This document shows, piece after piece, positions 39,202-43,940 of a stretch of DNA of 50,281 bases. Below the pieces are notes generated by a model. That model ran no database searches and was not told the origin of the DNA. It was given only the letters and a program-made list of their open reading frames with translations. A program made the position numbers and the translations under genes. The DNA is from Candidatus Bathyarchaeota archaeon (GTDB taxonomy: Archaea; Thermoproteota; Bathyarchaeia; 40CM-2-53-6): positions 1 to 50,281 of the forward strand of contig VBBD01000012.1 in the NCBI GenBank assembly GCA_005882895.1, given 5' to 3'. Positions within the stretch are counted from its first letter, which is position 1; every line of letters begins with the position of its first letter.

Positions 39202-39300
39202 TTCCCAAAACTCCGCTGTCGCTCTTCAATTGTTCGCATGCCTTTATAGACGCCTGCCCGGGCTTGGCCTCTTTCAAATCATAACTGGGTGCGTTGCTTG

Positions 39301-39819
39301 ATGGCGCTAGAAGTTCTCGAAGCCTTTCTTTCCAAGAACAGAGTCTACCTGAAAGAGCCCGAAAAACTCATGGAGCTCCGGGAGAAAGCCTTCGGAACCC
39401 TAGTAGGCGAGAAACTCTTCCTGAGCCCCTACGAAACATTCTATCTCGTCGAAAAACGACGAGCCCGCGTAGCCGACGAAAAGACAGGCAAGGAAAAAAC
39501 ACTCCAGGATCTCGTCACAAAACTGTCGGTTGGCAAACCAACCATATGGACCAAGTACTTAGTATACCGGGACCTACGAGATAGAGGCTACCTAGTCCGA
39601 GAATCCGAGGGAGGCTTCGACTTCGAAACCTTCGGAAAAGGAGCGACCCGTCGACAAGTATCGATAGTCTTCGAAGGAGGAGAATCAACTCTAGAACGGC
39701 TTGCCAAGCTCTCCGCAAAAGCGAACAAGGAAGGTAAAGACCTAGTCCTCGCCGTAATCGACAGACGCACAGACATCGTATACTATACCCTGAACACTGA
39801 ACGCTTCGAAGGAAAATAG
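39301..39819 (+). CDS. tRNA-splicing endonuclease fold, non-catalytic-type subunit
   Basis: This 172-aa protein has the two EndA domains: the N-terminal FYLVEKRRARV and the nuclease-fold KYLVYRDLRDRGYLV, ending LVLAVIDRRTDIVYYTL. EndA cuts tRNA introns at bulge-helix-bulge sites with a Tyr-His-Lys triad. Here the Tyr position (FxVYxRG in active EndA) reads ETFGKG, and the His (HSxYLV) reads RRQVSIVF. Only a Lys (GKDLVLAV) is plausible. It is therefore probably the structural partner of a heteromeric enzyme whose catalytic subunit is elsewhere. It is followed 25 bp later by hisS. Confidence 0.85.
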   Translation: MALEVLEAFLSKNRVYLKEPEKLMELREKAFGTLVGEKLFLSPYETFYLVEKRRARVADEKTGKEKTLQDLVTKLSVGKPTIWTKYLVYRDLRDRGYLVRESEGGFDFETFGKGATRRQVSIVFEGGESTLERLAKLSAKANKEGKDLVLAVIDRRTDIVYYTLNTERFEGK

Positions 39820-39844
39820 CCGCGAGACGGAGAAGCAGCATCAA

Positions 39845-41161
39845 TTGTCAGAGGCGCAATTCACCCTTCCACGGGGAATGAAAGACATTGACCCAGAAGA
39901 AATGTCACGCAGAATCTGGCTCACCGACAAGATACGACAAGTACTCTGGAACTACGGCTTCCAGATGCTAGAGCCAAGCCCTGTAGAAAACCTGGAAACC
40001 CTCGAGGCAAAATCAGGCCCGACAGTCCGAGACGAAATCTACTGGTTCAAAGACAAAGCAGAGCGAAACCTCGGACTACGATTCGACCTCACAGTAGGCA
40101 TGACCCGGATGGTTGCAAACCGATTCGACCTGCCAGAACCGATCAAGATCTCATGCATCGGAGGAGTATGGCGCTACGACGAACCTCAGTTTGCCCGTTA
40201 CAGATACTTCACACAATGGGATGCAGAGATCTACGGAGTCGCAGATCCGTCCGCCGATGCAGAGATCATCGCATTAAGCTCTGACATCCTAGACTCAGTC
40301 GGCCTCAAAGAACACCTAGTCAAAATTAGTAACCGAAAACTCGTCGAAGGCTTCCTACGAGGCCTGGGAACCCAGTCCCAAAATGAACTTGACCACCTGA
40401 TCAGAATAATCGACAAGGTCGGAAAAATAGGCTCCGAACAGGCAGAGCGAGAATTCACCCGAGCCGGTTTATCCAAGGACAAGGTCAAAAGAATCCTAGG
40501 ATTCGCCGATATCAGTGGAGACCCGGACCAGGTCCTCGGAGAGCTGGAGAGGAAACTGCCGAAGGGAGATATGATCCATCAAGGCTTCAAAGAACTCTCT
40601 GGAACAGTCGACAGGGTAGAATCCCTCGGAAAGAAGCCCAAGATCAAAGTTGACCTTGCAATCGTCCGGGGAATAAGCTACTACGACGGAACCGTATTCG
40701 AAGCCTACGACCAAGACGGAGAAGACGTGGGCGCAATCCTCGGCGGTGGGCGCTTCGACAAACTATGCAAAATATACGGAAAACGAGACATGCCAGCAAC
40801 CGGAGTAGCAGGCGGCTACGAACGACTCATGTTGTCCCTAGAGCGAAAAGACCTGTTCCCTGACATCCAACAAAGCCCACAAGTCTTCGTGGTCACAGTC
40901 AACGAAAGCGTCTGGAGCGAAGCCGTGAAAATCGTCCAACGACTCCGAAACCAAAACATCAGGGCTGACTACGACCTCAAACAACGCCCGCTCAGCAAAC
41001 AGCTAGAGTACGCCGACTCGTTGAAGGCAGGAATATGTCTCGTCTTGGGTCCTAGAGAGATCAAGGAGGGAAGCGTCCGTCTGAAAGATATGAAAACAGG
41101 CGAAGAGAAGAGCGTCAAGTTATCATCTGCAGTTGATGAGATCCGAAAAACCCTCGGATGA
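39845..41161 (+). CDS. hisS: histidyl-tRNA synthetase
   Basis: This class II synthetase of 438 aa charges tRNA-His. Motif 2 lies in VWRYDEPQFARYRYFTQWD, the histidine-specific LAIVRGISYYDGTVFEAY is present, and motif 3 is GGGRFDKL. The anticodon-binding domain occupies the last 95 residues (PQVFVVTVNES onward). TTG 39845 is the start. It forms a unit with the endonuclease subunit upstream. Confidence 0.94.
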   Translation: MSEAQFTLPRGMKDIDPEEMSRRIWLTDKIRQVLWNYGFQMLEPSPVENLETLEAKSGPTVRDEIYWFKDKAERNLGLRFDLTVGMTRMVANRFDLPEPIKISCIGGVWRYDEPQFARYRYFTQWDAEIYGVADPSADAEIIALSSDILDSVGLKEHLVKISNRKLVEGFLRGLGTQSQNELDHLIRIIDKVGKIGSEQAEREFTRAGLSKDKVKRILGFADISGDPDQVLGELERKLPKGDMIHQGFKELSGTVDRVESLGKKPKIKVDLAIVRGISYYDGTVFEAYDQDGEDVGAILGGGRFDKLCKIYGKRDMPATGVAGGYERLMLSLERKDLFPDIQQSPQVFVVTVNESVWSEAVKIVQRLRNQNIRADYDLKQRPLSKQLEYADSLKAGICLVLGPREIKEGSVRLKDMKTGEEKSVKLSSAVDEIRKTLG

Positions 41162-42284: not shown

Positions 42285-42391
42285 GGGCCCGTAGCTCAGT
42301 CTGGATAGAGCGGCAGCCTATTCCGGGCCGAGCCCCCTATGCCGTGAGCGAGTTGAGCTGTAGGTCCGGGGTTCGAATCCCCGCGGGCCCG
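42285..42391 (+). tRNA. intron-containing tRNA, anticodon probably GUU (Asn)
   Basis: Acceptor GGGCCCG/CGGGCCC, D-arm GCTC/GAGC and T-arm CGGGG TTCGAAT CCCCG are perfect. The discriminator is G and CCA is encoded (42392-42394). The anticodon arm GCAGC/GCTGT encloses 39 nt, 32 more than needed. Cutting 42320-42351 gives the loop CTGTTGA (GUU). The best helix-bulge geometry (GCGG:CCGT) would instead cut 42316-42347 and leave A at position 33. Both give anticodon GUU, but the junction is unresolved. Confidence 0.75.
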
Positions 42392-43701: not shown

Positions 43702-43734
43702 ATCGCATCTTTCTTTTCTTCCGGGTAAGAGTGG

Positions 43735-43940
43735 TCCCGGGGACCGGAGTCTCACAGAGGCTTTGTCCTCTTTTTGAATTCGCCGAACCGGTTTTCCAGG
43801 TTCTCCGGCGACACTCCGGTGTCTACTGTTAGCCTGGTAAGGCTGACGTGGCTGCGCACTGGGCGCACACCTACAGCGTCTTCGTCGCCCGCTGTTCTAG
43901 GGGGCGGCTCGGAAGCTCTTCCAGGCTGAGCTACCCCGGG
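43735..43940 (-). tRNA. tRNA-Tyr(GUA) with four introns
   Basis: On the minus strand the exons join to a 74-nt cloverleaf: acceptor CCCGGGG/CCCCGGG, TA, D-arm GCTC/GAGC, anticodon stem TCCGG/CCGGA, loop CTGTAGA, variable GTGTC, T-stem GCCGG/CCGGT and loop TTCAAAT. Discriminator A, C1:G72 (archaeal Tyr identity) and encoded CCA (43734-43732) fit. Introns are 43909-43878 (32 nt, position 30/31), 43870-43821 (50 nt, 37/38), 43804-43779 (26 nt, 53/54) and 43772-43749 (24 nt, 59/60). Central helices are CTTC:GAAG, CTGT:GTAG, CGCC:GGCG and TTCA:TGAG, each between 3-nt bulges. Intron lengths total 132, exactly 206 minus 74. Confidence 0.88.

Follow-up and report, generated by a model that had tools for sequence, protein, structure and literature searches.

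Can a tRNA gene that is cut into five pieces be the working source of a tRNA, and why would its introns be kept? Both questions are raised by a tRNA-Tyr gene in a stretch of 50,281 nt that was analysed as a whole and is called the window below. In the consulted parts of the literature, archaeal tRNA genes are stated to contain up to three introns (PMC8450103, PMC4033280, PMC3293823, PMC3218864), which agrees with the ceiling named in the preliminary description; the gene discussed here has four. The source contig (C18) belongs to the Bathyarchaeia MAG G000, which comprises 1.97 Mb and is 86.6% complete. The histidyl-tRNA synthetase encoded in the window has its best named relatives in MAGs of Candidatus Bathyarchaeota and Crenarchaeota, with 94% identity to Bathyarchaeota isolate BA_25 in the best segment; the names of their scaffolds include depths in cm, which may point to soil as the habitat. 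The tRNA-Tyr(GUA) gene is read from the minus strand (window positions 43940-43735) and is followed by an encoded CCA (43734-43732). Its parts are as follows.

43910..43940, minus strand: exon 1, positions 1-30 (acceptor 5' strand, D-arm and 27-30); the identical 31-mer is found in 17 other genomes of the family
43918..43926, minus strand: D-loop positions 15-22 (GCCTGGAAG), putative partner of the intron 2 9-mer
43878..43909, minus strand: intron 1, at 30/31, 32 nt, with a bulge-helix-bulge (BHB) motif; lacking in 21 parsed genes, G016 and G008 included
43871..43877, minus strand: exon 2, positions 31-37, GCTGTAG with anticodon GUA
43821..43870, minus strand: intron 2, at 37/38, 50 nt, containing the putative D-loop-pairing element; present in 117 of 117 parsed genes
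43842..43845, minus strand: CAGC in intron 2, complement of exon positions 31-34
43832..43840, minus strand: 9-mer in intron 2, predicted to pair with D-loop positions 15-22
43827..43829, minus strand: ACA of intron 2, lying 16 nt away from the CAG start and outside the BHB helix in G000
43805..43820, minus strand: exon 3, positions 38-53
43779..43804, minus strand: intron 3, at 53/54, 26 nt; absent in 77 of 117 parsed genes, including G021, G040, G024 and G029
43773..43778, minus strand: exon 4, positions 54-59, the six-nucleotide mini-exon TTCAAA
43749..43772, minus strand: intron 4, at 59/60, 24 nt, splitting the T-loop; absent in 63 of 117 parsed genes, including G021
43735..43748, minus strand: exon 5, positions 60-73
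43732..43734, minus strand: encoded CCA

The precursor consists of five exons of 31, 7, 16, 6 and 14 nt and four introns of 32, 50, 26 and 24 nt. Removal of the introns restores a canonical tRNA with 21 of 21 stem pairs and the conserved loop bases. The preliminary description had placed inserts at 30/31, 37/38, 53/54 and 59/60, amounting to 132 nt and leaving a 74-nt tRNA with C1:G72, A73, GUA and CCA. The re-read coordinates and the complete set of stem pairs bear out these sums, and the same four introns form the top parse of a beam-search parser that scores tRNA consensus bases, the 21 stem pairs, and BHB pairing once upstream introns have been removed. A reading with five introns, two of them abutting at 36/37 and 37/38, scored 141.7 against 142.7 for the best parse; it was rejected because these introns would lie one base apart and because it vanishes when every exon is required to have at least 4 nt. 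With this minimum the best parse scores 142.7 and the next, in which intron 2 is moved to 38/39, 134.6. An earlier dynamic-programming parse that ignored stem pairing misplaced the T-arm introns (e.g., at 48/49 and 56/57) and was replaced by the beam parser. ARAGORN does not detect the tRNA-Tyr gene of G000, and the Rfam tRNA model misses it at the gathering score. A further tRNA gene, found on the plus strand of the window (42285-42391; 107 nt; 55 bits with Rfam), is also missed by ARAGORN and probably contains an intron, since it is about 30 nt too long.

The locus is very probably a working, apparently single-copy tRNA-Tyr(GUA) gene, whose precursor with four BHB-type introns would be spliced to the 74-nt tRNA; expression, cleavage and ligation of the precursor, and any order in which its introns are removed, are inferred from the sequence. 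A second intact tRNA-Tyr, which the preliminary description had named, in combination with a lack of expression from this locus, as evidence that would count against the gene, was not seen when the 86.6% complete G000 was searched with the spliced sequence: the full first exon occurs at this locus only, and the other matches are shorter or weaker. The Rfam tRNA model has hits at 16 places in G000 with E <= 0.001 and at 42 with E <= 10. An alternative explanation is that the gene is decaying or unused and that another tRNA-Tyr supplies the function. A MAG that is just 86.6% complete leaves room for such a gene; however, the mature exons are identical in nine related species, CCA is encoded, and no other tRNA-Tyr first exon was found in G000, so that we consider this explanation highly improbable.

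In splicing of the precursor, a two-subunit-type endonuclease would make the cuts at the BHB of each intron, and the exons would be joined into the 74-nt tRNA by RtcB. RtcB was found in G000, and the PF01974 endonuclease is present there in two copies, one of which lies in the window; 18 of 21 genomes have at least two copies.

39289..39819, plus strand: tRNA splicing endonuclease paralog (PF01974 and PF02778), adjoining the histidyl-tRNA synthetase gene

The other copy, on contig C14 of G000, scores higher. Inspected by eye for what we take to be the catalytic Tyr/His/Lys, the active-site region is retained in the C14 copy but not in the window copy, a difference that would fit an enzyme of two subunits, with the window copy presumably the non-catalytic one. 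The two PF01974 paralogs and RtcB together suggest that the predicted machinery for relaxed BHB motifs is present. As to location, the paralog and the histidyl-tRNA synthetase gene (window 39289-41161, plus strand) lie about 4 kb from the tRNA-Tyr gene, and in G004, G005, G006, G009 and G012 an endonuclease paralog likewise shares a contig with the tRNA-Tyr gene, at a distance of about 3.7-5.7 kb.

The distribution of the introns was followed across Bathyarchaeia. An 801-base query found matches in 35 of 41 genomes (query genome included; the match in G039 is a different tRNA), and a D-arm pattern found candidates in 130 of the 256 members of the class. We parsed 117 tRNA-Tyr genes, one per genome, at about one or more per genus, not all; the 126 class genomes without a match to the D-arm pattern were left out, except for nine found by the 801-base query. 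Four candidates (L094, the first of the genes at L147, L229 and L240) were dropped, their best early parse having no GUA anticodon; L241, which gave no parse, was dropped as well, together with a duplicate locus of G008 and one of two identical copies in G208. In G041 the parse was made on the Tyr gene instead, and G002 has unknown bases in intron 1.

Among the 117 genes, 17 have one intron, 46 two, 10 three, 37 four and seven five. The four-intron genes belong to seven families (19 in f1, the family of the window, two in f4, one each in f7 and f9, four in f12, three in f13 and seven in f14). The preliminary description had regarded four introns as unusual; this holds with respect to the maximum of three given in the consulted parts of the literature, but not within Bathyarchaeia, where four are common and a sister family has five. 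Three combinations account for the four-intron genes of f1: 30/31, 37/38, 53/54 and 59/60 (13 genes), 30/31, 37/38, 44/45 and 59/60 (four genes), and 37/38, 44/45, 53/54 and 59/60 (two genes). In the sister family f3, for which nine genomes are listed, all seven parsed genes have introns at 9/10, 30/31, 37/38, 53/54 and 59/60.

L080-L083 and L090-L092: five-intron tRNA-Tyr genes of family f3

The 9/10 intron of f3 has a clear BHB (e.g., GCGG/CCGT with inner GATG/CATC). Inspection by eye of the leader upstream of the tRNA-Tyr genes at L080-L083, L087 and L090-L093 revealed, in most of the nine, a tandem repeat of the acceptor 5' strand (GGTCCCGCGGATCCCGCGG or similar), which could pair with the 3' end of the tRNA.

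Relatives that lack individual introns confirm three of the four insertion sites. G021 has neither the 53/54 nor the 59/60 intron, and its GCCTG-TTCAAAT-CAGGC is contiguous; G016 and G008 lack the 30/31 intron, and TTCCG-GCTGTAG is contiguous in both. In each case the exons are joined as parsed. None of the 117 parsed genes lacks the 37/38 intron. Within these genes, 53/54 introns (40 genes) always occur together with 59/60 introns (54 genes); two loci found later (G172 and G177) have 53/54 without 59/60, and the later loci also add two four-intron genes (G166 and G199). Nine relatives of G000 (G004, G005, G006, G009, G012-G015 and G017) keep all four introns and an identical 74-mer, and their introns differ.

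The 59/60 intron also occurs in a form that does not follow its surroundings. A 23-nt version is identical in seven genomes from three families (G059, G063, G071, G112, G127, G144 and G169; loci L168, L170, L175, L178, L243, L194 and L202), in which introns 1 and 2 and the flanks differ. This points either to horizontal spread of the 3' part of the gene or to an unusual constraint. It could also be cited, as could the interruption of the T-arm by the 53/54 and 59/60 introns, for the proposal of Randau and Soell, described in the consulted part of PMC4090602, that introns persist by breaking up the integration target of mobile elements. However, the region downstream of L264, the one region inspected by eye, showed only metabolic-looking frames and no integrase, and protection of a target would account for the maintenance of introns, not for their origin; we regard this explanation for their persistence as quite unlikely. 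Exchange at an attachment site as the source of the identical 59/60 intron was likewise set aside, as no integrase was seen in the L264 region.

A BHB can be drawn at each of the four junctions, as the preliminary description had claimed; its further claim that every intron is bounded by a 4-bp helix with 3-nt bulges is idealised, since the motif is relaxed at 37/38 and, on one side, at 59/60. The central helix is CUUC/GAAG at 30/31 and CGCC/GGCG at 53/54, where GAACC/GGTTC is found in addition. In the 37/38 helix, CUGU/GUAG, two pairs are Watson-Crick and two are wobbles. The 59/60 helix, UUCA/UGAG, contains a single wobble, and a step next to its bulge is unpaired that is paired in some close relatives. 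When the interiors of the introns were shuffled 20,000 times with the junctions kept fixed, the observed BHB score was reached or exceeded once for 30/31, never for 53/54, 14 times for 59/60, and 205 times for 37/38, which makes the last the weakest of the four.

The folding calculations set the 37/38 junction apart more strongly. In the full G000 precursor the ensemble probability of the forced BHB pairs is 0.05 for 30/31, 0.08 for 53/54, 0.085 for 59/60 and 5e-12 for 37/38; the probability of the 37/38 core ranges from 5e-12 to 2e-14 over every state computed, values that depend on which inner pairs the script forced. It is likewise low in the seven other genomes computed (2e-7 at best). If the folding model holds, cutting at 37/38 would call for help from a chaperone or from the enzyme, or for a different geometry of the motif. 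Across the precursor states of G000, the ensemble calculation revealed no obligate or clear order of splicing. The idea that 53/54 is removed before 59/60 was dropped, as it is not supported by the folding: the 59/60 motif turns less probable after removal of 53/54.

What distinguishes the 37/38 intron is a conserved stretch, roughly CAGCC-TNCC-RRGC-NN-ACA, that follows a variable hairpin and contains, before the ACA, a 9-mer complementary to D-loop positions 15-22. Nine of nine pairs are formed in 95 of the 117 genes, eight in 19 and seven in three. Shuffled introns reach eight pairs in 198 of 11,700 cases, compared to 114 of the 117 real introns, and with four other tRNA segments as partner none of the 117 introns reaches eight. 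Permuting the D-loops among genomes gave at most 874 of 1053 Watson-Crick cells in 2000 trials, compared to 929 observed, and permutation with re-selection gave at most 60 genes with at least eight Watson-Crick pairs in 500 trials, compared to 91 of 117; these controls ignore relatedness. At position 17 the pairs are C-G (49 genes), T-A (63) and T-G (5), with zero mismatches, and C-G and T-A are exchanged for one another inside families f3, f13, f14, f15 and f18. At position 20 the pairs are A-T (11), T-A (68), T-G (16) and C-G (9), with A-T, T-A and C-G found in different families; pairing fails with C-C in one gene and with A-A in 12, all of them from f1 and G000 among them in the ungapped count. 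The G000 9-mer forms eight of nine pairs ungapped; in the minimum-energy fold of the precursor (z -4.80), D-loop bases 14-22 all pair with intron 2, with one intron base bulged.

The element extends beyond the class. Sixteen of 20 later loci were parsed, all with nine of nine pairs, and ten of them come from five families outside the class; the search pattern selects for part of the motif, so that these loci reveal its presence and not its frequency. The loci left unparsed are G283, which is truncated, and G282, G303 and G316, which have D-loop inserts. In these last three (L310, L312 and L316), which belong to another class, the insert appears by eye to sit at the start of the D-loop, immediately beside the predicted pairing partner of the 37/38 intron.

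The covariation supports a putative additional pairing of the 37/38 intron with the D-loop in the precursor, and we propose that this pairing represents a conserved alternative fold of the pre-tRNA. Most likely, its role would be to keep the precursor in another fold, in which the anticodon loop is presented for an early step that precedes formation of the cloverleaf, either a modification or a delay in the splicing of 37/38.

One way in which the alternative fold might act is as a checkpoint, with the D-loop:intron pairing, perhaps together with pairing between positions 31-34 and CAGC, delaying splicing until the T-arm introns have been removed or modifications completed. The pairing would compete with the cloverleaf and with the 37/38 BHB, which uses positions 32-35. 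In agreement with this, CAGC and the BHB strand are potential rivals for the same bases of the exon, the predicted probability of the 37/38 BHB is tiny, and the D-loop helix is part of the minimum-energy fold. However, no order among the other introns follows from thermodynamics alone, and the single-intron genes keep the element equally well (eight or nine pairs in 17 of 17), so that the element does not depend on T-arm introns. A checkpoint in folding or splicing is a possibility that we hold tentatively, with the odds somewhat against it, and we consider it more likely than the second way in which the fold might act, as a guide for modification.

This second, speculative explanation is that the 37/38 element is a cis-acting H/ACA-like guide, with which Cbf5 would make pseudouridine 35 in the precursor. 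The D-loop:intron helix would form the lower stem, CAGC would be the 3' guide to positions 31-34, and the ACA would follow 14-16 nt on. U35 of tRNA-Tyr is a known target of aPus7/TruD or of H/ACA guides in the consulted parts of PMC4652768, PMC6313347 and PMC7991803, and the parts consulted of PMC4652768 and PMC7991803 describe a trans-acting H/ACA guide for this position in Sulfolobales. CAGC is the complement of 31-34 and ends right before U35; it stands immediately before the 9-mer in 87 of 117 introns, and one base further upstream in G000. The part of PMC4652768 consulted gives an archaeal H/ACA rule of 14-16 nt spacing and a lower stem of 7-9 bp. The spacing from CAG to the box (ACA or AAA) is 14-16 nt in 104 of 105 introns and 34 nt in one, the remaining 12 introns being without CAG, and the helix of seven to nine pairs falls within the rule in 117 of 117. 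In the 74 introns whose box is not at the position usual for the BHB, it is still ACA (72) or AAA (two), and the next triplet varies. The element is found in other classes of the phylum, too. The stand-alone U35 enzyme TruD/aPus7 (PF01142) is absent from 21 of 21 genomes of f1, six of which are at least 92% complete, and the Cbf5 domain PF08068 was found in 13 of 13 genomes searched. In several f3 genomes, TruD is in two pieces with the middle missing.

Nevertheless, several observations argue against a guide. Of 256 Bathyarchaeia, 190 have TruD, among them many of the parsed genomes that keep the element, and in 43 of 117 introns the ACA occupies a place required by the BHB strand. The guide would not be bipartite: no 5' guide is seen, the target runs directly into the upper hairpin, and there is a 3' candidate only. 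By eye, neither a K-turn nor a K-loop was seen above the pocket in G000, the one genome inspected for it. In many introns, about four bases appear by eye to separate CAGC from the upper hairpin, which goes beyond the rule, so that the spacing from the pocket to the ACA is 14-16 nt in 104 of 105 when counted from CAG and seems longer in many when counted from the pair that closes the upper hairpin. The minimum-energy fold of G000 contains the D-loop helix without the pairing of CAGC to 31-34, and G31 pairs elsewhere in the intron. The intron was not classified as an H/ACA RNA because there is no 5' guide, no K-turn was seen, the minimum-energy fold lacks the CAGC pairing, and extra bases lie beside the upper hairpin. 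That the 37/38 intron of tRNA-Tyr, in Bathyarchaeia and in no fewer than five other families of the phylum, uses the D-loop as one strand of an H/ACA-like lower stem to guide pseudouridine 35 in cis seems unlikely to us. If it were true, it would be an archaeal counterpart to the intron-dependent pseudouridine 35 of eukaryotes, and would explain why the 37/38 intron is found in every parsed gene while other introns come and go.

Whichever role applies to the proposed alternative fold, an intron that is always present and whose pairing covaries with the D-loop makes the reason for its retention directly testable, and the series of intron presence and absence over more than 100 species is a ready system to test gain and loss of tRNA introns. 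With four introns common and five in a sister family, gene finders that do not remove introns successively can miss essential tRNAs; the tRNA-Tyr gene of G000, overlooked by both ARAGORN and Rfam, is an instance.

A search of mainly open-access literature found neither a published archaeal tRNA gene with four introns nor a published H/ACA-like intron in tRNA-Tyr. Measured against the consulted parts of the literature, which state three, four introns per gene are new, short of proven so. Thermoproteales (Pyrobaculum and others) also have BHB introns at canonical and non-canonical sites and a two-subunit endonuclease; however, their maximum, as given in the consulted parts of the literature, is three introns per gene, compared to four here and five in the sister family. 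The Asgard archaea are similarly rich in introns: the part of PMC11291895 consulted gives 228 tRNA introns in three genomes and describes more than half of the tRNA genes of Atabeyarchaeia and Freyarchaeia as having several, often at non-canonical positions. These are another lineage, and four or more per gene may occur there, as the same part of PMC11291895 gives no maximum. The permuted tRNA-Tyr of Thermofilum pendens resembles the present gene in having a break at 59/60 and a canonical intron (PMC3218864, part consulted), but its gene order is permuted, whereas here the order is linear and the introns are ordinary. In the tRNA-Trp of Haloferax and relatives, an intron likewise contains an element aimed at its own tRNA (PMC11408192 and PMC4090602, parts consulted). 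That element is a box C/D guide, whereas the one described here looks H/ACA-like, pairs with the D-loop, and is a putative guide at best. The Sulfolobus guide Sso1 shares with it the target position U35 of tRNA-Tyr and the spacing rule, but in the part of PMC4652768 consulted Sso1 is a separate guide RNA acting in trans with a canonical 10/5/9 fold, whereas the element here lies in cis and has at most one guide. BHB introns in tRNA genes were thus known already; what the Bathyarchaeia add is the number of introns, the relatives with five, and an intron that appears to pair with the D-loop.
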